Source of the DNA: a virus
Length of the DNA stretch: 50,667 nt
Virus record (IMG/VR): IMGVR_UViG_3300037808_001107
Span: 1 to 50,667 of that record
Direction: 5' to 3' (one strand)
Shown here: piece after piece, positions 1 to 20,046 of the stretch
How positions within the stretch are numbered: the stretch's first letter is position 1
How the letters are laid out: each line of letters opens with the position of its first letter
The notes under the pieces: generated by a model
What the model saw: the letters and a program-made list of their open reading frames with translations, nothing else
Database searches by the model: none
What the model was told of the DNA's origin: nothing
Made by a program: the position numbers and the translations under genes

Positions 1-576
1 TGTGTCATCATCTTTTCCAGATGCGGCAATAGTAGACTCATAATAAAATTTTACCTCTCCCTCGATGACATCTGAATCCCCGTATTTAATATCTCCAAGG
101 TTATAACCGATCGGTTGAACTTTATAATAACCAAGCTTTCTCACCACCTGTCCCGATGAATCATAGAAATATATTAAAATATTTGAGGTGTGGGTCAATC
201 CGGCTCTGGGCACGAAGGCGGCTGGAACTTTGGATTTTATGGGAGTTTCCCAATATCCCTGAACCATTTTTGGAATATCCCTCATTAGCTGCGGTGTCAT
301 AATTAACTTTAATGAAAGCTCTCCTAGATCAGCACTAGTTCCCTGTATATCAGTCTCTAAACTCAGCTTGGCGGCATTATTCTCATATTGTAATTCGAAT
401 CCTGGCAAGTCGACTGATGAAATCAAATGAGTCGGGATCTTATAGTTTCTTAACTTCCCCTTAGGGACAACGGTTTGGCCGGTGGATATAAGTCGTGGAT
501 ATATCCACAAATTTGTAATAACTTGATAACGATATTTTTGAAGTGGTACAGTATTTTTATCAGTCCAAAATGCCAT
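1..576 (-). CDS. Second tail-tube-fold protein, partial at its 3' end
   Basis: The frame opens with an ATG nine bases after a GGGGAG ribosome site and stays open to the left edge, giving about 192 residues without a stop. Its start, FWTDKNTVPLQKYRYQV, matches the start of the tube protein encoded just upstream (FWTSKGVDPKRKYRFTV). Later blocks also align in order: a LISSVDLPGF block with FAKTVDKPEI, ELSLKLIMTP with EVSLVLTDPI, and LGYYKVQPIGYNLGDIKYG with LKNAFIIKLGYGDLDYT. I infer a gp19-type fold. In T4 this fold is used by the tube (gp19) and the tube initiator (gp54), so either a second tube subunit or a gp54-like role fits. It follows a terminator and a late-type motif, so it probably heads its own transcript. 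Its C-terminus is outside the window. Confidence 0.7.
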   Translation of the reverse strand, partial: MAFWTDKNTVPLQKYRYQVITNLWIYPRLISTGQTVVPKGKLRNYKIPTHLISSVDLPGFELQYENNAAKLSLETDIQGTSADLGELSLKLIMTPQLMRDIPKMVQGYWETPIKSKVPAAFVPRAGLTHTSNILIYFYDSSGQVVRKLGYYKVQPIGYNLGDIKYGDSDVIEGEVKFYYESTIAASGKDDDT

Positions 577-605: not shown

Positions 606-641
606 AAAAAAACCAAGAAATATCTATTATCTCTTGGTTTT
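606..641 (-). terminator. Rho-independent terminator after the gp26/frameshift region
   Basis: There is a perfect 10-bp inverted repeat (arms 609-618 and 632-641, AAAACCAAGA with its complement) around a 13-base loop. On the minus strand it is followed by a run of seven T. The stop codon of the small downstream frame lies inside the first arm, so the coding end and terminator overlap. The run of T also exists on the other strand, so it could act in both directions. Confidence 0.8.
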
Positions 642-878
642 ATAAGATTTTTTCATCTGATCATTTTCTTTTTGCATCTGATCTGATAGGCGCTGTAAGA
701 ACCAGCGGCGGATCTTAATGGGAAGATTATACGCCTCGATGAAACTCCACCCCCCATGGTATTTCATCAAAAAGAACTCTTCATAAACAGATTGGATATA
801 TTCATCACTTAGGCCAAAAAAAGTCCGTAGTGAACGGCACCTCCAGATCCGTTCCATAATTACAAGAAGGGCATTCAA
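627..878 (-). CDS. Small overlapping frame after gp26, probable frameshift extension
   Basis: This frame overlaps the end of the gp26-like gene by 74 bases. A free-standing start would be a TTG, or an ATG seven codons later, and neither has a ribosome site in front of it. The conserved-looking part, YHGGWSFIEAYNLPIKIRRW, lies wholly after the overlap. A run of seven U in the overlap would let ribosomes shift from the gp26 frame into this one and add about 62 residues. Overlapping frames joined by frameshifting are typical of phage tail assembly chaperones. From memory, a small protein with a similar GGF/W-S-x-x-EA-x-x-LP motif follows gp26 homologues in other T4-like phages. It is either a C-terminal extension of gp26 or a separate 76-83 residue protein. 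The first is more likely because no start signal is visible. Confidence 0.6.
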   Translation of the reverse strand: MNALLVIMERIWRCRSLRTFFGLSDEYIQSVYEEFFLMKYHGGWSFIEAYNLPIKIRRWFLQRLSDQMQKENDQMKKSYKTKR

Positions 879-1668
879 ACTCTTGAGTCATGTCAATGTT
901 TGGAATATTTTTCTCGTAGATCGCGCGCAGATGTTTTGAATCTCGGGCTGGCATAACTTCTATAAACTCTCCAATTAAACTTCTTGTTTCAATTCCATTA
1001 GCAGAAACAATGATAGCTTTCAGCATATCCGTAAGTTTTGTTTCTGGTAGATTTTTTCTCTTTTTTGATTCTTGTAAGCGAGCCATATACATCTCATCTT
1101 TTCCAGTCATCGGGCGCATCTCAACTTGAACTCCTGTAATCGGAGTAGTTATCATAAGAGTGCCATTTTCTGTCCAAGATGCATCTTCCGCGTCTTCATT
1201 AAACGCTTTTATTTGTACATCGGAAAGATCAAACTCATAATCAGAGGATGTCATACACGCTGGACATACTACCTTAGTTGAATATTCTGCGCCATATCCA
1301 TTAATTCTAGCCGCAATGAGGATAGCATTTCTATCCCCCGATAGCAACCCATCAGATCTTACCGACTTATCAATAATAATATTCTTAAGAAATCTCTCAA
1401 TTGCAATACCTTGTTTAATAAGTGTTTTAGAAGAAAGAATATCTTCCTCCTTCGCTGTCATATATTTAATTTCAATACTTTCCACACCACATAGAGGATG
1501 ATCCCCTGGATAGCAGCGCCCCTGTGAAGGAAGCTCTACGAACTCTGTTGGTGTTGCGAAAGATAAGCCCTCAGATTGTGACTGCATTACTGCTGCAATG
1601 GAGTCATCCGAGGGGGTTTCAGTAGCGTCCGGTTCTTTACCTAGTCTACTGCCACTATTTCTAGCCAA
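805..1668 (-). CDS. gp26: Baseplate hub/assembly protein, T4 gp26-like
   Basis: The 287-residue protein has the family signature near residues 45-53 (VELPSQGRCY), followed by an acidic, helical middle region. It carries two cysteine pairs, CPAC at 135-138 and CPSC at 266-269, which could together bind one zinc. This matches the T4 base plate protein family, whose T4 member takes part in assembling the baseplate hub. It sits after the tube gene, as expected for a tail module. The C-terminus is DFFWPK unless ribosomes shift at the U7 run, in which case about 62 further residues would be added. The family call is firm. The exact role in this phage is inferred. Confidence 0.8.
   Translation of the reverse strand: MARNSGSRLGKEPDATETPSDDSIAAVMQSQSEGLSFATPTEFVELPSQGRCYPGDHPLCGVESIEIKYMTAKEEDILSSKTLIKQGIAIERFLKNIIIDKSVRSDGLLSGDRNAILIAARINGYGAEYSTKVVCPACMTSSDYEFDLSDVQIKAFNEDAEDASWTENGTLMITTPITGVQVEMRPMTGKDEMYMARLQESKKRKNLPETKLTDMLKAIIVSANGIETRSLIGEFIEVMPARDSKHLRAIYEKNIPNIDMTQEFECPSCNYGTDLEVPFTTDFFWPK
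814..825 (-). other. Candidate programmed frameshift site, U7
   Basis: The minus strand reads GAC UUU UUU UGG in the gp26 frame and ACU UUU UUU GGC in the overlapping frame. Re-pairing of a Phe tRNA on UUU would give a +1 (or -2) shift, placing the overlapping frame after residue 284 of gp26. Without a shift, gp26 ends three codons later. A GGAGGU sequence lies 16 bases upstream of the U run and might act as a stimulator. Use of this site is inferred, not shown. Confidence 0.5.
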
Positions 1669-1696: not shown

Positions 1697-2272
1697 CTAA
1701 TCATCGGAGTCATTGGTCCCATTGAAGAACGGGCCGCCTTCGCCTTGGGTAATAATTTCGGCCCAATCATATCTAAATGTCATCGTAATTTCTGACAAAT
1801 CCTCGGAAGTATAATCCAGATCGCCATATCCAAGCTTAATTATAAATGCATTTTTTAATGTCCATTGTTCTTGTGTTACACCTTTGGCATCAACTTGCTT
1901 AATTATAACTTCAAATGATTGGGTTTTCGCAATAGATTGTAAATTCTGAACTGCTCCCTCTGGACCCACATATCCCATTGCCGATAAGAGGGCTGCTGTC
2001 GCGCCCGCTGCATCTGGGCTGATTGGATCTGTCAAGACAAGAGAAACCTCATTCCACTCAACTGTTCCTGGAAAATAAAACTTATGTTGCATAAAGTTGA
2101 CATCTGCCGTATTGACTGTGATCTCTGGCTTATCAACTGTCTTTGCAAACCAAAGTGGGGCGATCGCGCCGAAAGAACTCCTATAGGTGGCGCCGCCGGC
2201 AAGACTAACCGTAAATCTATATTTTCTTTTTGGGTCTACGCCCTTGCTTGTCCAAAAATTATCTTGAGCCAT
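1697..2272 (-). CDS. gp19: Tail tube protein, T4 gp19-like
   Basis: This 191-residue protein follows the sheath gene, as gp19 follows gp18 in T4, and is close to the usual tube length of about 160-190 residues. It opens with FWTSKGVDPKRKYRFTV and contains the central TVEWNEVSLVLTDP strand block, which is typical of tube monomers that stack as hexamers inside the sheath. The C-terminal LKNAFIIKLGYGDLDYT segment is also typical. A late-type motif and an AGGAG ribosome site precede it. The left-edge gene is a clear paralogue. I am fairly sure of the tube assignment. Confidence 0.85.
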   Translation of the reverse strand: MAQDNFWTSKGVDPKRKYRFTVSLAGGATYRSSFGAIAPLWFAKTVDKPEITVNTADVNFMQHKFYFPGTVEWNEVSLVLTDPISPDAAGATAALLSAMGYVGPEGAVQNLQSIAKTQSFEVIIKQVDAKGVTQEQWTLKNAFIIKLGYGDLDYTSEDLSEITMTFRYDWAEIITQGEGGPFFNGTNDSDD

Positions 2273-11554: not shown

Positions 11555-12082
11555 TTAATTTAAATTTAAATATGGATCCGCTGCGGCATTGGCCGATGTT
11601 TCGTCAACTGAGGCCAAAACAGCATCAATATAAGTCTGTGCCAGTCCCCTTTCTGTGAAAACGGCTGCGGATACTGTGCCCATAATTGCCGACAGATCTG
11701 CGCTGTCAGCAACAGTATATGTTCCTCTTTCGTCGTTTGTTGTCACCGAAAACGGATAGGTCACTAATCCTCTCGTATCAAGACTTGCAAATTTTGACCA
11801 ATTATCCTGACTCTTAGTTGAGCAGGAAAAGTAATTTCCACTTAAAGCTGGATATTCTGCAACGATTACGTTTTCTAGGCGATCGTCATCTCGCTTTGTC
11901 TTTATTTGAACCACCAAACTATCTTGAAATTCCGCCAATGTGGTTGGAGTCGCAGAAGTGTGAGCAACAGATTCCTTGACGGAGTGGTCCGTGTGGATGT
12001 CTATATGGGCTTCCATGCCCGTCGAATCATCGATGTCGAACATAGCCCCACAGGAGCAGATGAAAATCATTTTAGTAGTCAT
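11555..12082 (-). CDS. Fibre-associated protein with a possible N-terminal zinc site
   Basis: I choose the ATG that overlaps the preceding stop as TAATG, giving 175 residues. A longer start 11 codons upstream would run into the fibre gene. The first 40 residues hold CSCG, then HIDIHTDH, a possible Cys/His metal site. The middle has DNWSKFASLDTRGLVTYPFS and the C-terminal half a helical VSAAVFTERGLAQTYIDAV. This looks like the DUF4376 or fibre-accessory style in which a subunit is encoded just after its fibre. A chaperone or cap for the upstream fibre is an inference. No catalytic motif is seen. Confidence 0.55.
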   Translation of the reverse strand: MTTKMIFICSCGAMFDIDDSTGMEAHIDIHTDHSVKESVAHTSATPTTLAEFQDSLVVQIKTKRDDDRLENVIVAEYPALSGNYFSCSTKSQDNWSKFASLDTRGLVTYPFSVTTNDERGTYTVADSADLSAIMGTVSAAVFTERGLAQTYIDAVLASVDETSANAAADPYLNLN

Positions 12083-14100
12083 TAGGGGGCCCTCACAAAT
12101 TGTACAGTTATCCACATCCGGTTGCCTTGACCAACAGCGGTGCCGTTCGTACCTGTAGATTGAGCGCGTAGCCGAACAACATCACTGGCAGCGAGTTGGA
12201 CGAGGAATGTCGCACCGCTGCTCGCTGTATCGTCGACCGTATTACGAGAGTAGGATGATGCGCGTGATGGCACGATCTCTACGGTATTATTCTCAACCCA
12301 GGCATCGACGGAACGGCGGAAGTTTCCGTTAGTGGCGAAGTATACTTGATAGGAGATCTGATAGACTCCTGCGGTATTGATTGTAATATTCTCGCCAGAT
12401 CGGGTGTAGTTCGAATCTTCAAAATCATTTGCATTAAGAACCACCGTCGTCGCTGATGTGTTGATGGTTAAATTTCCGGTTTGCCTGTATTGGGCTATGT
12501 TTGCAGACCCGCCTGTAATGGTGATGGTCGCGACTCCGCTGCCAGCATCTGTGGCAGTAACCCCAGCCCCAACGAAGTCAAGATTGCTGTGTGGTCCGCC
12601 AGATACGATTGATCCTTCGTCTTCAACGGTGATTGTACTCCCTGAGCCTGTTGGGCCTTGTGCGCCAGTTGGGCCTTGGGTTCCGTTGCTGCCAATTGAG
12701 AGAACCTGTAGGCTGACTCCGCCAGTGTCTGTTGTGTAACCTCCTACTCCGTTTGTAACTTCGCTCCTGAGCCTAATAACATCTCCATCTGACAGAGTTA
12801 TGATTACGCTTCGGCCGGCGGTGTTGTCGGTAGTGAGGCCGTGTTCATCCCAATGTGAGAACACCGAACGGGTTGCGGTAACCTCCGTGCCGTTAATTTC
12901 CATCCAGCACTCTATTTCCCTGTTGTTGTTATCTGTATCTCTAAAGGTTACATCGTATCGAATAAAATAATCGCCGGCGCCATTGGTTTGGACGGTCACC
13001 TGATCAGAAGATAGAACGAATAGCGCGTTGCTTTGCCTAGATCTATCTAGGCCGAGGGTAGTAGCGGTTGTTCCCACACTCGTTGTGGCCGCATCGTAGT
13101 AATCCACATATACGGGTTCTGCGGGTGTTGCCCACCTAACTCCAGTGCTTTGGGAACTATCGGCGGTCAGGATATCATTATTAGAGCCGACTGCAAGTCG
13201 CGTTACTGTATTGTCCGCTGACGCAGCCAACAGGTCGCCCTTAGCGTCTGCCAATGTTTCCATAATTGCGCCCGCTGCTGCGACATTCGTAGCGTCGGTA
13301 ACGTCTGCGCCGTCCTCCACATTAAGGAGAGTTCGGGCTTCTGTGGCGGTTAATTCATCGGCCGCGCCTCCTGCCGTAAAGGCAGCGAGGTTGCTTGCCG
13401 CACCGGTATGTCCCGAAGTGGCCCATGTAAGATTGCTGGTTAGCGCGGCATGATCGAGTGTTCCGCCGCCGCTGGCCGCAGCCCACTTTATACCAGTGGG
13501 TTCGGCGCTATCGGCAGTTAAGACAAACGTATCTGCGCCCACGGCCAAACGATCTACTGTGTCTGCCGCTGTCGCGGCCAATAGGTCGCCTTTGACATTT
13601 ACTAGGCTTTCTTGTATGGGTCCGGTCAAATTTGTACCATCACCGTAGAAAGCCGAGCCAGAGATGTTCCCCGAGCCGCTTATTGCTCCATCAACAGATA
13701 GAGTATTGCTGGCTTTTAGCCAAACAAAATTCGAGGATCCACTAAAATTAGATCCTCCGTCATTAAATTGAACCTGAGTGTCATCCCCTCCGGGGGAATA
13801 GACGGATGATGTTAATTGAGAAACTTCGGTGCTCTCTTCTGGGGTTGGCATGTTGGCCCACGAGTAGTCCGTATCGACGATTTTGACAAGCCCAGTCTGA
13901 GCAGAGGCCAATGTGATCGTTAGGGAATTTCTCGGATCCAGGGGGTCGAGATCAATAGAGGAAATAAGTGCCGAACTATCTGATGAACCGCCAATGGAAA
14001 CTATAACACCCATCTGGTATCTATCGAGAGAGTGATTGACAACGATCGTGTCTGTCGCTGTAAATGTTTGACTATATAATAAATTAAAATTTCCTGCCAT
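12082..14100 (-). CDS. Tail fibre/appendage with two jelly-roll-like domains
   Basis: Starting at the ATG that overlaps the upstream stop (TAATG), the protein has 672 residues; an upstream start would extend into the neighbour. An N-terminal beta domain (1-90) is followed by one copy of the FYGDGTNLTG module and two copies of a KGDLLAA-x-AxxTVxRLAVG module. Then comes a beta domain near 320-460 and a short collagen-like GTQGPTGAQGPTGSG linker. The last 150 residues form a second beta domain similar to the first (both have a YxIxYxVxF strand followed by an acidic ExW or DAW). Both look like C1q/TNF-type trimer heads. It is probably a trimeric adhesion protein. Its binding target is unknown. 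Confidence 0.72.
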   Translation of the reverse strand: MAGNFNLLYSQTFTATDTIVVNHSLDRYQMGVIVSIGGSSDSSALISSIDLDPLDPRNSLTITLASAQTGLVKIVDTDYSWANMPTPEESTEVSQLTSSVYSPGGDDTQVQFNDGGSNFSGSSNFVWLKASNTLSVDGAISGSGNISGSAFYGDGTNLTGPIQESLVNVKGDLLAATAADTVDRLAVGADTFVLTADSAEPTGIKWAAASGGGTLDHAALTSNLTWATSGHTGAASNLAAFTAGGAADELTATEARTLLNVEDGADVTDATNVAAAGAIMETLADAKGDLLAASADNTVTRLAVGSNNDILTADSSQSTGVRWATPAEPVYVDYYDAATTSVGTTATTLGLDRSRQSNALFVLSSDQVTVQTNGAGDYFIRYDVTFRDTDNNNREIECWMEINGTEVTATRSVFSHWDEHGLTTDNTAGRSVIITLSDGDVIRLRSEVTNGVGGYTTDTGGVSLQVLSIGSNGTQGPTGAQGPTGSGSTITVEDEGSIVSGGPHSNLDFVGAGVTATDAGSGVATITITGGSANIAQYRQTGNLTINTSATTVVLNANDFEDSNYTRSGENITINTAGVYQISYQVYFATNGNFRRSVDAWVENNTVEIVPSRASSYSRNTVDDTASSGATFLVQLAASDVVRLRAQSTGTNGTAVGQGNRMWITVQFVRAP

Positions 14101-17100
14101 TAGCGTGGCTTTCCTTCTGTGAATTTGTGTCCCTCGATCATGATTGCCCAAACACTGACATTATAATTTGGACTGCCGTGGTTATCTAGCTCGAAGCGTA
14201 TAGCGACGATATCGTCCTCATAGTACTCCTCAATCGAGAGGGGAGAAAAAATAGTAGAGATTATTCTGTTACTCAAATCATCACCGACGATAGCTCCGGT
14301 CGGCTGTAGTAATTTAGAGAGTGCCAGTGGGGCGGCCTTGGCTGTCAGTGTTTCGGTATTCGCGAATGTTCTGGGGGTTGGAATTTTGCCTCCCAGTGGG
14401 TCAGCGACATTGACACCGGTGACCTGAATCGGGATAACCGACAGAATTCCAGTTGGGAAGGTTACGGCGGCGGCGGCACTATCCAGAGAATAAATAATTT
14501 TAAATTTAAGTGGCAGCGATGTATTGATTCCTGGCGGGAGTGTGAACTGGGTATAGATAGCATCTCCGGATCCATTTAAATTTGAATTGGGCATTCTTTG
14601 TGTCCACTCTGTTGGTAGACCCCCTGACCCGACAAGGATATTAGCCCCGACGACTCCGCCAGATTCACCAAAAACATTTCCGGAAGCACCAAGTTCCACC
14701 TGCCAGATAGCACCACCGTGTGACTGTCTCACACCAGCTTCACTAATAGAAAGGTGTGTTGGGGTCACCCACCATTTTTCAAACTGTGGTAGACTAGCAG
14801 AGGTAACTATCCTACAGCGGGTCCAGTATGCGGCATCGCCACCGATCGTAGAAATAGCCCAGGCTGTATCGTCGTCGAGTCCAAATCTGATGAATTCCTC
14901 GCTATCTGTTCGCATAAATGGGTTGTTGGCATACCGATAGCCAGTATCCACAGAAGTGCATTGATAATCTATATCGGACCATGCCGACCCGTTCCAGATC
15001 TCGTATACATAGGCACCAGTCAACGAACCAACGGATGTATCAACATTGATCCCACAATATTTAAGTGGATTTGAATCTACATCCTTTCTTGTCGAACCAA
15101 AATATATGCAATGATCGGGTGATCCTCCCTGAAAAGTAAATGGCGAACCAACAATCGAAGATGCCGAAGTTGTGACATCAATCAAAGATCCAGTTGTTGT
15201 TGTAGTATCTGTTCCGTCACTGGTATATACTTTTATCCCAAATGCATAGGAAGACCCTTTACCAACTGCGATGGCTGACCCTTTCTCTGGAAATCCTATT
15301 TCAAGATTTGTACCGAAGAGGCTTTCAGCGGCATAGTGATCAAGGTCCGCCGTGGTCGTGAATTTTACCTCGAATTGAGCGTTAAGAGCAGACGGAGGAA
15401 AATTGAAATCGGGGTGGGAATTGATATTTGTCAGAGAGATGATTGATGCGCTGGTGAAAGTTTCGGAGTTATTCATTGTGACAGCATATGCGGAATGTTG
15501 GATCTTTCCGCCATTTATCTCCACATTCACCCCATCTTGCTGGATATTAAGCCCATTTTGGATATCAACCCAATTTACACTTAGGCAAATTGCAGTAGCG
15601 GAACCAGAAACGGTCATTGCATTGACAACATTTGAATTCCCGGCGTTAAAATTGATTAATTGGGCGCGGCCTGTACCTTCGGCAAGGGCGATATTTGTGA
15701 TATCACCAGAGGCGGACGGAACATGAATCGATTCAAGTGCCATGACTCCCTGATCTACCCTGATAATGGAACTCAATCCGCCTTTAACCAATCTAATTTC
15801 GGATCCAATTACCTTGCCTGTCCCAGTTTTTACGAAACCATCCCCTTGCCCACTAGCCCCATCGCCAGAAAAAGCCATGGAGTAAGCCTGCATAGTTCCA
15901 CCGGTACCGCCGGTATAGCGGATGCCCGCATTTGAAGAGCCGGTTGGAACATGGACAGTGAATCCCTCGATCCAAGTATCGTCAACTGTTGTGATAATAT
16001 CCGTGGCCGAGGATGTTATGCCGATAGAGGTTTGTGCATAGCCTCCCTGCGAAAATAAGGCTCGGCCTGCGGGTATTGCCAAAGAGGTTTCAGGATAGTC
16101 CCCTGGAGTGACATAAATTGCATCGCCCGCGATTGAAGCTGCAATTGCCGAGGATATCGTCAAATACGGTTGTGATTTGTCGCCCCTAGTTCCAGTGCCA
16201 TCATTTCCATTAATGCCATCAACAAAAAGGGAGTTTCCAACCAAAAGGGGCACTTCTATGCCGGTTAAGTTTGACCCATCTCCATAAAGAAAACTGGCAG
16301 ATATAAGGGAGCTTGCCGTTACGTTTGTCACGCTAATTGTTGTTGGAAGTCTTGCGTTTGCCAGAGTTCCTGCTGATATATTTGAGGCGTTTAAGTCCGT
16401 TAAGTTGGCGCCCCCACCATAAAAATCAGAGCCAGAAATGTTTCCAGAGCCGCTCACTCCGCCGAGAGTTAGAATATTGTTCGTTTTATCCCAAGTAAAT
16501 TGAGGATCGGCCGCGAATCCGCCGGCATCTCTAAATTGAACCTGAGTATCTGATCCTGCTGCAATTCCAGTTAAATTGGCGCCGTCGCCATAAAAAGAAC
16601 TTGCGGAGACGAGAGTGCTTGCTGTTACGTTAGTGACACTTATTGTAGCTGGCAGTCTTGCGTTATTTAATGTTCCTGCTGAGATATTAGAGGCATTTAA
16701 ATCTGTTAGATTTGCCCCTCCGCCGTAGAAATCAGAGCCTGAGATGTTGACAGATGCACTAATATCGCCAGTTACAGTTAGCGTGTCTGTTGTCTTATTC
16801 CAGGTGAATTCTGCATCTCCGCCGAAAGCCGTCCCATCATTGAATTGAATTTGAGTATCAGATCCTGCTGCGTTGCCGGCTGGGAGATTTGTTAAGTTTG
16901 ATCCATCTCCGTAAAAAGCGCTTGCGGATACAAGAGTGCTTGCCGTAACATTCGTCACGCTTATAGTTGCGGGAAGCCTTGCGTTATTCAACGTTCCCGC
17001 TGATATGTTGGAGGCGTTTAAGTCTGTTAAGTTTGCGCCACCACCATAGAAATCTGATCCGGAAATATTAACCGAAGCACTCACATCGCCAGTTACGGTT

Positions 17101-18077
17101 AATGTGTTGCTTGTCTTATTCCATGTGAATTGTGGATCCCCGCCAAACGCGGTTCCTCCATCATTGAATTGAATCTCGGTGTCAGATCCAGCAGCTTCGG
17201 AGATAATCCCAGTTAGATTTGATCCATCTCCATAAAACGCGCTGGCAGAGACGAGAGTGCTTGCTGTAACGTTTGTAACGCTTATTGTAGCTGGGAGGCG
17301 CGCATTATTGAGCGTTCCGGCTGATATATTAGAGGCGTTTAAATCTGTTAGATTAGAGCCGTCTCCATAGAAAGATGAACCTGAAATGTTACCAGATCCT
17401 GAAATATCGCCGGTTATGGTCAGAGTTGTATTGTCGAATGTTAGATTTGCCTCGCCCTCAACTGTTGTTGCGTTGACAGAGGTTATAATTCTGTCTGCGC
17501 CGGGTGTGTTATACGTTGATATAGCAGCAGATGGAAGATTTGTTAGGCTCCCGCCGTCGCCATAGAAGAAGGAGCCCGAGATGGCGCCAGAACCAGAGAT
17601 ATCTCCGGTAACTGTTAGAATATTGCTTCCAGAAGCCCATGTGAATTGCGGGTCGGCGCCGAAAGCTCCGTCTGCGTTAAATTGAATTTCTGTATTTGAT
17701 CCTGCGGGATTCGAAGAAACTCCAGTTAGGTTTGATCCGTCGCCGTAATATACACTGGCGGATACGAAGCTGCTTGCAGAGAGGCTCGTAATGGCCAAAT
17801 CTTCTGGTATTCCACCAGGAGTTGGGCCTGCGGTAGTTTGAACAATTGCCAGACTTTCGACTTGAGTTAGATCGGTTGTTCCGTCGTTAATAATAACATC
17901 GCCAGCGGTGATATGGGCGATGAGTTCTACGTCATCTTGGATCTCATTGACTGTCGCAAAATCTGTCAAAGTGACAGTTGATCCCACTCCCGCTGGAACT
18001 TCATTATTTGGGACGGACAACTGCGTTAAAGCCAGGGCTCCTGCTGTTTGGTTTTTAGCAATTAGTGTTACTGCCAT
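14100..18077 (-). CDS. Large modular tail fibre with repeats and a beta-helix
   Basis: The 1325-residue protein has three regions. After an N-terminal domain (1-105), residues 106-606 hold tandem copies of a roughly 100-residue module containing IQFNDGGTAFGGDPQFTW, LTVTGDVSASVNISGS and FYGDGSNLTG blocks. Residues 612-890 begin VDGINGNDGTGTRGDKSQPY and look like a right-handed parallel beta-helix of the pectate-lyase-like kind, common in depolymerising tailspikes. No catalytic residues can be assigned. The last 430 residues form beta-rich domains of unknown type. Its stop overlaps the next gene's start, so the fibres are translated as a coupled series. Receptor or capsule binding is the likely role. 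Confidence 0.75.
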   Translation of the reverse strand: MAVTLIAKNQTAGALALTQLSVPNNEVPAGVGSTVTLTDFATVNEIQDDVELIAHITAGDVIINDGTTDLTQVESLAIVQTTAGPTPGGIPEDLAITSLSASSFVSASVYYGDGSNLTGVSSNPAGSNTEIQFNADGAFGADPQFTWASGSNILTVTGDISGSGAISGSFFYGDGGSLTNLPSAAISTYNTPGADRIITSVNATTVEGEANLTFDNTTLTITGDISGSGNISGSSFYGDGSNLTDLNASNISAGTLNNARLPATISVTNVTASTLVSASAFYGDGSNLTGIISEAAGSDTEIQFNDGGTAFGGDPQFTWNKTSNTLTVTGDVSASVNISGSDFYGGGANLTDLNASNISAGTLNNARLPATISVTNVTASTLVSASAFYGDGSNLTNLPAGNAAGSDTQIQFNDGTAFGGDAEFTWNKTTDTLTVTGDISASVNISGSDFYGGGANLTDLNASNISAGTLNNARLPATISVTNVTASTLVSASSFYGDGANLTGIAAGSDTQVQFRDAGGFAADPQFTWDKTNNILTLGGVSGSGNISGSDFYGGGANLTDLNASNISAGTLANARLPTTISVTNVTASSLISASFLYGDGSNLTGIEVPLLVGNSLFVDGINGNDGTGTRGDKSQPYLTISSAIAASIAGDAIYVTPGDYPETSLAIPAGRALFSQGGYAQTSIGITSSATDIITTVDDTWIEGFTVHVPTGSSNAGIRYTGGTGGTMQAYSMAFSGDGASGQGDGFVKTGTGKVIGSEIRLVKGGLSSIIRVDQGVMALESIHVPSASGDITNIALAEGTGRAQLINFNAGNSNVVNAMTVSGSATAICLSVNWVDIQNGLNIQQDGVNVEINGGKIQHSAYAVTMNNSETFTSASIISLTNINSHPDFNFPPSALNAQFEVKFTTTADLDHYAAESLFGTNLEIGFPEKGSAIAVGKGSSYAFGIKVYTSDGTDTTTTTGSLIDVTTSASSIVGSPFTFQGGSPDHCIYFGSTRKDVDSNPLKYCGINVDTSVGSLTGAYVYEIWNGSAWSDIDYQCTSVDTGYRYANNPFMRTDSEEFIRFGLDDDTAWAISTIGGDAAYWTRCRIVTSASLPQFEKWWVTPTHLSISEAGVRQSHGGAIWQVELGASGNVFGESGGVVGANILVGSGGLPTEWTQRMPNSNLNGSGDAIYTQFTLPPGINTSLPLKFKIIYSLDSAAAAVTFPTGILSVIPIQVTGVNVADPLGGKIPTPRTFANTETLTAKAAPLALSKLLQPTGAIVGDDLSNRIISTIFSPLSIEEYYEDDIVAIRFELDNHGSPNYNVSVWAIMIEGHKFTEGKPR
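16260..17760 (-). repeat. Tandem fibre modules, period about 310-320 bases
   Basis: About four and a half in-frame copies, each encoding NLTDLNASNISAGTLNNARL followed by PATISVTNVTASTLVSAS. Protein copies are almost identical, while the DNA copies differ at many third positions. The same module continues in the adjacent fibre gene. Confidence 0.8.
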
Positions 18078-18078
18078 T

Positions 18079-20046
18079 TTATATTCTCCACTTCATTCTT
18101 GCTACACCGAGCACATCTGTTGTTGTATTTCCGTCTGCCGATTGGTTTCTGACCCCCAAAACTGTATCCGCTGCGAAGTCATCGCTTAGGGTCTCTGTTG
18201 ACCCCCCGATTACTGAGGATGATAAAAATGAAACCGTCGTTCCGCCAGAAGTCACATTAAAAACTGCGGCGTCCGTGTCTCCCCGCGTATAAGAAAACGA
18301 AACAATGGTTCCGTTATGTTCTGCGTACCTTCCCTGTATCGCAGAATATGATCTACCGTTTATACCTCGATAGTAGGCGCCGACGCCGGTGTTTCCATTT
18401 CTTCCGAAATGAATTTCTGAGGTTTCTGCCGAAAGCCATTTTGTGCGCGATGAGTCATAATGCATTGTCATATTAAGTACTGTGTTGTAATAAAAATCAC
18501 CTGCGTTTGGTGAACCAACTGGATCTGTTGCGCTGGGTCCGAAATCGCGTGCGAGACCTGTTAAATTAGAGCCATCACCGTAAAAAGCCGAACCTGAAAC
18601 GTTTCCAGAACCGGAGACATCGCCCGTTATCACCAAAGTCGTATTATCAAATGTTAAGTTTGGTTCGCCCTCGACTGTTGTCGCGTTGACGGAGGTTATA
18701 ACCCTCCCTGCGGAAGCACTATTGTATGTTGTTATTGCCGCTGATGGGAGATTTGTCAAGTTTGACCCATCTCCGTAAAAGAAGCTTGATGAAACTAGCG
18801 CAGAGGCTGTAATGTTTGTGACACTTATTGTAGCTGGGAGGCGCGCATTATTTAGGGTTCCGGCTGATATGTTTGAGGCGTTCAGGTCTGTTAGATTTGC
18901 ACCCCCGCCGTAGAAATCCGATCCAGAAACGTTGACAGATGCACTAATGTCTCCTGTTACGGTCAAGGTATTTGTTGTTTTATTCCATGTAAATTCAGCA
19001 TCACCATTGAAGGTGCCGGCATCATTAAATTGGATTTGTGTATCTAGGCCACCAGGAGAACCAGCTGGAAGATTTGTTAAATTTGATCCATCGCCATATA
19101 GAAAACTGGCAGAAACCAACGAACTAGCAGTCACGTTTGTCACGCTGACTGTTGCGGGAAGCCTTGCGTTGTTTAGTGTTCCCGCTGATATATTTGAGGC
19201 GTTTAAGTCCGCTAAATTTGATCCATCGCCATAAAATTCTGATCCCGATATATTAACAGAGGCGCTAATGTCGCCCGTTACAGAAAGTGTGTTGCTTCCC
19301 GTAAGCCAAGTAAAGTCTGCGTCTGCGTCGGTTACTCCATCAGCATTAAACTGAATTTGCGTGTTAGATCCTGCTGGAGTGGCCGAAGCGACAACATTTG
19401 TAAGACCAGAACCATCACCATAAAAGAAGGCGCCCGAGATGTTTGAAGAGGCCGTTATATCGCCGGTGACGGTGAGGGCATTGCTCCCACTCGCCCAAAC
19501 GAGATCGGAGTCCGCGCCCGTGATGCCGTCTGCGTTAAATTGAATTTGGGTATTGGAGCCGGCTGGTACTGCTGTCGCTGTGATTCCGGTTATGCCGGTA
19601 CCGTCGCCATAAAAGAATGCTCCGGAAATGTTTGAGGAGGCTGTTATATCTCCCAAAACTGTCAGGGCGTTCGCTGTAAGGTCCCAAGTAAAGTTTGGAT
19701 CTCCTCCGAATGCGCCGCCTTCGTTGAATTGCACAGAAGTAAGCGGCAGATCTGGGGTTGTTGCGCCGCCGCCGATAATAGCGCTTGCGGAGATGGCCCC
19801 GACGATGAAAACATCTCCGTCAATAAGAACAGACCCAGTAAATTGATGTGTGTCGTCCGGAGTATCGCCAAATTTAGTATTACCATCGGCGTCAATATGA
19901 GTAACATTAGTATTTATAACATTGACGTCATATTGATTGGCCGTGATTGTTCCAGACACAACAAGGTCACCAGTTATATCGACTGGGCCTCCCGTTATGA
20001 CAAATTCGCCACTAATGTAGTTTCTACTGGGTCTAAATCTTGACAT
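18079..20046 (-). CDS. Tail fibre with shared modules and MSRFRPSRN anchor
   Basis: The 655-residue protein opens MSRFRPSRN, nearly the same as the next fibre upstream (MSRYRPSRN), pointing to a common attachment site. Residues 60-500 hold copies of the FYGDGSNLTNL and SNTQIQFNADG modules found in the 1325-residue fibre. The C-terminal part (from about 540) has HFGRNGNTGVGAYYRGINGR and a serine- and threonine-rich tail ending ARMKWRI, different from its relatives, as expected for a binding tip. Its ATG overlaps the upstream stop (TAATG). Together with its neighbours it may form alternative or hetero-oligomeric fibres. The target is unknown. Confidence 0.73.
   Translation of the reverse strand: MSRFRPSRNYISGEFVITGGPVDITGDLVVSGTITANQYDVNVINTNVTHIDADGNTKFGDTPDDTHQFTGSVLIDGDVFIVGAISASAIIGGGATTPDLPLTSVQFNEGGAFGGDPNFTWDLTANALTVLGDITASSNISGAFFYGDGTGITGITATAVPAGSNTQIQFNADGITGADSDLVWASGSNALTVTGDITASSNISGAFFYGDGSGLTNVVASATPAGSNTQIQFNADGVTDADADFTWLTGSNTLSVTGDISASVNISGSEFYGDGSNLADLNASNISAGTLNNARLPATVSVTNVTASSLVSASFLYGDGSNLTNLPAGSPGGLDTQIQFNDAGTFNGDAEFTWNKTTNTLTVTGDISASVNVSGSDFYGGGANLTDLNASNISAGTLNNARLPATISVTNITASALVSSSFFYGDGSNLTNLPSAAITTYNSASAGRVITSVNATTVEGEPNLTFDNTTLVITGDVSGSGNVSGSAFYGDGSNLTGLARDFGPSATDPVGSPNAGDFYYNTVLNMTMHYDSSRTKWLSAETSEIHFGRNGNTGVGAYYRGINGRSYSAIQGRYAEHNGTIVSFSYTRGDTDAAVFNVTSGGTTVSFLSSSVIGGSTETLSDDFAADTVLGVRNQSADGNTTTDVLGVARMKWRI
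18540..19660 (-). repeat. Fibre modules shared with the neighbouring gene
   Basis: Repeats of full modules and of a shorter form (about 190 bases) that lacks the SAGTLNNARLPAT part. The blocks IQFNADG, LTVTGDISAS and FYGDGSNLT recur in the same order as in the 1325-residue fibre, with frequent synonymous differences. Confidence 0.75.

Follow-up and report, generated by a model that had tools for sequence, protein, structure and literature searches.

The marine T4-like virus analysed here very probably makes both a short and a long form of a tail-building helper protein from one gene. Comparative evidence makes a programmed frameshift at this locus nearly certain, and it is highly likely that the locus is one tail assembly chaperone gene with a programmed +1 ribosomal frameshift. 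The case is built on a conserved frame relation, a conserved slip site, missing start codons, domain homology and gene order, all found by sequence comparison. The window, i.e. the whole stretch of DNA that was analysed, comprises 50,667 nt (IMG/VR virus record IMGVR_UViG_3300037808_001107).

The locus and its neighbours in the window

Two minus-strand frames overlap by 74 bases (805-878): a first frame of 287 aa (1668-805), whose protein ends in ...TTDFFWPK, and a small frame of 83 aa (878-627). A sequence-only reading of the window had pointed out this overlap around GAC UUU UUU UGG and proposed that a frameshift on the U run joins the frames into a protein of about 346 residues. Indeed, a U7 run lies at 822-816 (minus strand) in the context GAC UUU UUU UGG CCU AAG UGA, the small frame is offset from the gp26-like frame by +1 (equal to -2), and a +1 shift gives a predicted product of 346 residues. 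The features of the locus are as follows.

1697..2272, minus strand: tail tube protein (gp19-like), upstream neighbour (PHROG 4542, E 3e-21)
805..1668, minus strand: short product, gp26-like (TAC-N / G-like), 287 aa, with a TTG start preceded by GAGGTG and a TGA stop at 807-805 (PF12322, 2.8e-19; PHROG 150, 8e-20)
840..844, minus strand: GGAGG, resembling a Shine-Dalgarno sequence and lying 17 nt before the U run, possible stimulator (GAG bias in relatives)
816..822, minus strand: putative U7 slip site UUU UUU U(GG) (conserved in 194 relatives; re-pairing analysis)
627..815, minus strand: C-terminal domain in the +1 frame (DUF6760-like; T-like), GLSDEY...KTKR, 62 codons and a stop (PF20546, 4.3e-4, below cut-off; conserved from GL on in relatives; codon-position pattern)
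627..1668, minus strand: putative long product of a +1 frameshift (TAC-NC / GT-like), 346 aa (in T4 gp51, the homologous parts are fused in frame)

The first protein belongs to PF12322 (70.1 bits, for a curated cut-off of 24.5). The small domain resembles DUF6760 (PF20546) at 20.7 bits, which is below the membership cut-off of 27; the term DUF6760 was absent from the literature searched. Within the window, the slip 12-mer TTTTTTTGGCCT is found at a single place on the coding strand and nowhere on the opposite strand, the corresponding counts of TTTTTTT being 7 and 19, and a second in-frame TTTT is present within the small domain. Upstream of the slip site, the small frame has two candidate starts, TTG 878 and ATG 857. 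Neither displays a clear Shine-Dalgarno sequence, as the sequence-only reading had observed; the window alone therefore leaves an own start possible, and it is the relatives that exclude it.

Beyond the tail tube gene, the next upstream frame encodes 962 residues and is taken for the tail sheath gene by its position. On the other side, beside the small frame, the gene at 1-576 (minus strand) encodes 17 N-terminal residues similar to those of the tube protein at 1697-2272 (minus strand; 53%, E 7e-4) and possibly specifies a second tube protein. Two related contigs (L005 and L006) also carry an extra tube-like frame, located between the small frame and a tape-measure-like frame. Elsewhere in the window, three neighbouring large genes (12082-20046, minus strand) have in common a SGNISGSxFYGDGSNLT-like motif that occurs in many copies, probably as repeats of a tail fibre or appendage.

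Conservation of the +1 frame relation

Relatives were collected by two scans with the proteins of the window and one with a Flavobacterium phage homologue, which gave 136 and 60 deduplicated loci, 196 in total. The small domain is in +1 in 194 of them and, when the first proteins are clustered at 70% identity, in 92 of 94 clusters, a frame relation that is far beyond chance across these sequences. UUU YUU UGG CCU or a close variant precedes the small domain of the +1 loci; 145 of the 194 have TTTTTTTGGCCT as slip 12-mer, 37 have TTTCTTTGGCCT, 5 have TTCTTTTGGCCT and 3 have TTTCTATGGCCT. The two slip codons are followed by UGG in 192/194 loci, and CCU comes next, also in 192/194. UUC is rare at these two codons, against about 25% of the Phe codons elsewhere in the gene. 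The conservation of U run and frame relation, which had been put forward as a check of the proposed fusion, is thus what the relatives display, the slip motif being kept as such or as a close variant. In L047 and L080, the two exceptions, a canonical -1 heptamer, A AAU UUC, is followed by the small domain in -1; both loci are placed inside the +1 clade in the tree of the first protein.

Past the first stop, the differences in the second frame at the three codon positions are 0.26/0.09/0.50 in the first group, second positions being the least variable and third positions the most, which is a coding pattern for the second frame. Its recognisable part had been said to start only past the U run, and conservation among relatives does begin at GL. 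No ATG, GTG or TTG able to start the small domain is found upstream of the slip site in 62 of the 194 +1 loci. This count covers the interval from the last upstream second-frame stop to the slip site (48/136 loci, including the two -1 exceptions, and 16/60); extended to the first codon of the domain, without these exceptions, it gives 47/134 and 16/60. Starts inside the small domain have no fixed position in the relatives and few have a Shine-Dalgarno sequence. A small frame with its own start, the finding named beforehand as one that would speak against a fusion, occurs only in two distant relatives, LR756511 and Cygsa01, where an ATG overlaps the first stop (TAATG), and in no near relative.

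The +1-frame domain is also found in isolates, namely Flavobacterium phage immuto, Microcystis phage Mel-JY01, the 484-kb LR756508 and Rhodothermus phage RM378, as well as in SP-15, LIS04, a Streptococcus phage and BRock, for which we infer the exact slip codon. Other phages have a -1 relation, on U UUU UUU in XacN1 and on U UUU UUC in Atu_ph07. A scan with the SP-15 protein retrieved one relative and a scan with the XacN1 protein none; a single-protein scan of genome contigs matched four MAG contigs.

Proposed mechanism and alternative explanations

In the proposed mechanism, most ribosomes would stop at the TGA at 807-805, and the short gp26-like protein released there would serve to coat the tape measure protein. 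UGG would be slow in the A site, and the Phe-tRNA on UUU would sometimes slip one base forward, re-pairing from UUU to UUU (in relatives, from CUU/UUU to UUU/UUC). The shifted ribosome would then read GGC CUA... and add a domain of about 62 residues; the resulting long protein, made in minor amounts, would bring in the tail tube subunits. We infer the efficiency of the slippage, as well as its ribosomal (not transcriptional) nature; the chaperone roles of the two proteins would be those of lambda gpG and gpGT, by analogy. Re-pairing of the P-site tRNA in the +1 frame, as expected of a programmed +1 frameshift, is complete in 194/194 loci. The direction of the shift also matches the slip motif, since A AAU UUC, U UUU UUC and U UUU UUU all go with -1.

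The sequence-only reading had left the direction as +1 or -2. Frameshifting by -2 is known for phage Mu, and a -2 slip of the Phe-tRNA on the U run would produce the same fusion from the same gene, with complete -2 re-pairing in 186 of the 194 loci. However, the eight others, UUC UUU UGG (5 loci) and UUU CUA UGG (3 loci), can re-pair at +1 and not at -2. Furthermore, UGG after the slip codons in 192/194 loci is what would be expected of a slow A-site codon acting in a +1 shift, unlike the codon following the slip site in the -1 clade, which is free to vary. Therefore +1 is favoured, and the -2 half of the earlier proposal now appears improbable. Still less probable is a separate small gene, expressed from its own TTG or ATG or by coupled re-initiation at the first stop. 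The two upstream starts of the window and the TAATG overlaps of LR756511 and Cygsa01 would suit such a gene, but about one third of the +1 loci and all 75 cyanophage-type loci lack any ATG, GTG or TTG there, the starts inside the domain lie at varying places, few of them with a Shine-Dalgarno sequence, and conservation of the domain begins right after the slip, the slip motif itself being left unexplained.

The U7 homopolymer present in most +1-group loci could also suggest slippage of the RNA polymerase, leading to mRNAs in both frames. Nevertheless, the run is broken to four U or fewer (UUUCUUU, UUCUUUU, UUUCUAU) in 46/194 loci that keep the frame relation, which speaks against transcriptional slippage, and the run of the cyanophages is U6 or little more; this explanation is very unlikely. 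As for an assembly error or a decayed gene without function, one U more or less would indeed alter the frame relation, but the same relation recurs in 92 of the 70%-identity clusters, as well as in the separately sequenced isolates immuto, Mel-JY01 and RM378, so that comparison refutes it. Programmed +1 ribosomal frameshifting within one gene is thus by far the preferred reading of the locus.

Signals around the slip site

The distance of Shine-Dalgarno-like octamers from the slip codon depends on the group: they end 8 nt upstream of it in the -1 cyanophages, and 15 and 25 nt upstream in the two +1 groups. At the Shine-Dalgarno-like site of the marine +1 group, Glu is always encoded by GAG (GAG:GAA 82:0, against 915:1825 elsewhere); therefore the DNA itself, beyond the residue alone, seems to be under selection at this codon. 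The prfB-type arrangement, a Shine-Dalgarno sequence 3 nt upstream of the slip codon combined with a stop codon in the A site, is not the one found here. No RNA structure was detected downstream of the slip site in 16 cyanophage-type loci. In 18 +1 loci, the only stem lies about 60 nt downstream and lacks covariation, no conserved stem being found near the slip site.

Probable identity as a tail assembly chaperone

Chaperones of the G/GT type share an N-terminal part between a short and a frameshifted long product, are encoded between the tail tube and tape measure genes and have the fold of HK97 gp13. The frame relation, slip site and missing starts predict such a pair of products here. The gene order is sheath, tube, gp26-like gene, small frame and tape measure in immuto and SP-15, and tube, gp26-like gene and tape measure in LIS04; related contigs carry long tape-measure-like frames downstream. 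In the window, which does not include a tape measure gene, the tube side alone is visible.

Structures were predicted for the short proteins of the window (pLDDT 85) and of a cyanophage. In both cases, the best solved match is the HK97 tail assembly chaperone 2OB9, with Z 5.3, rmsd 5.6 and 86 aligned residues for the window model, and Z 7.6, rmsd 4.3 and 83 aligned residues for the cyanophage model, whose next match scores 2.4. Both Z scores are under 8 and hence moderate, that of the window being modest, and the same protein came out on top twice. A Foldseek search of the PDB had no hit with E <= 0.001, and 2OB9 ranked first only in a second look with VIA. From gene order and the best match of the two models, we identify the gp26-like locus as a putative G/GT-type tail assembly chaperone. 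A frameshift at a gp26 homologue had been expected to be notable; the frameshift stands, but not its oddity, since gp26 proteins would be tail assembly chaperones and the shift would be of the expected G/GT kind rather than a peculiarity of a baseplate protein. T4 gp51 is reported to be absent from the particle (PMC3004832).

The gp26-like protein of Atu_ph07 (L253, 2944-3786) weakly matches PHROG 1854, 'PmgB-like head morphogenesis' (E 0.005). The pmgB gene of P1 precedes the tape measure gene of that phage and was proposed to encode its chaperone (PMC9024508); the two proteins may belong to the same family.

Relation to known systems

Frameshifts of -1 are established in tail genes, and the lambda G/GT chaperone frameshift was reportedly described by Xu, Hendrix and Duda in 2004. 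As proposed for the window, the single lambda G/GT gene gives two products, one short and one long, by a shift near its 3' end, and it is located between the tube and tape measure genes. However, its shift is -1 on another slip site, whereas the locus of the window would shift +1 on UUU YUU UGG and belongs to another family (PF12322). PMC5009743 reviews the lambda case, describes G-T frameshifting as widely conserved 'except T4' and considers a +1 shift 'very likely' at the tail chaperone of the haloarchaeal myovirus HSTV-2, which would share with our locus a +1 direction in a tail chaperone gene. The prfB gene (RF2), shifting +1 at CUU UGA, shares the CUU/UUU +1 slip and the slow A-site codon, some relatives having CUU UGG; unlike prfB, the locus of the window has UGG, a sense codon, as the A-site codon, no Shine-Dalgarno sequence at 3 nt and no autoregulation.

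According to papers citing it, Vladimirov et al. 2022 (Virology 566:9-15) covers T4-like phages in which a short gene is accompanied by a long, fused one (PMC10885494) and polyT -1 signals in T4-like chaperone genes (PMC12846349). The T4 pair is therefore already known, as is perhaps the -1 form of cyanophages. No report of the +1 form was found in the literature searched, in which Vladimirov et al. 2022 was covered through these citing papers, and within this scope, what appears to be new is that a +1 version is conserved and that the direction switches.

Cyanophage and T4 forms and evolution of the gene pair

The cyanophage group has the same gene pair with a U-rich slip site on the two corresponding Phe codons, but shifts -1 on U UUU UUC, whereas the window would shift +1. 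This holds for S-RIM8 and for 75/75 deduplicated relatives of this type, with the slip site one codon before the stop in all 75. In S-RIM8, the pair is annotated as a baseplate hub gene followed by a 'baseplate hub assembly catalyst'.

In T4, both gp26 and gp51 belong to PF12322; as predicted for the window, there is a short form (gp26) and a long form with an extra C-terminal domain (gp51), only the latter extending to the end of PHROG 150. However, T4 encodes them by two genes, and neither has a U run or slip motif at the junction; the motif is absent where two separate genes exist (T4, 44RR). The C-terminus of gp51 matches the cyanophage small domain (hhalign probability 95.9%), which in turn weakly matches the +1-group domain (63%); compared directly, the latter and gp51 have no significant profile match (0.9%). 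Homology of the +1-group domain to that of gp51 is thus only indirect, via the cyanophages. Within the -1 clade of the first-protein tree, which is rooted only at the midpoint, gp26 and gp51 group together (96/89).

Sequence comparison indicates that one-gene frameshifting, in either direction, recurs in nearly all examined relatives outside the close kin of T4. On balance, with odds only a little better than even, the gp26-family pair would be made by a recoding module that changed direction in evolution, between +1 (UUU YUU UGG) and -1 (U UUU UUC, A AAU UUC), both on the same pair of Phe codons, the two genes of T4 resulting from a duplication within the -1 lineage. If true, a conserved +1 frameshift with UGG, a sense codon, as the A-site codon would be very widespread among uncultured myophages. 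The family would also provide a natural series of one gene with changed shift direction, so that what each direction requires of the sequence could be compared between homologous codons, and a sequence context for the need of T4 for two genes (26 and 51). Furthermore, it suggests a simple annotation rule for a tail chaperone that many T4-like genomes, including those of isolates, list as 'baseplate hub', its small gene being lost or called 'hypothetical'.

In Enterobacter phage EC-F2, a hypothetical gene located right after gp51 (L260:3237-3794) encodes a gp26-like protein, with the C-terminal sequence CSCG...LRGLEAFL.
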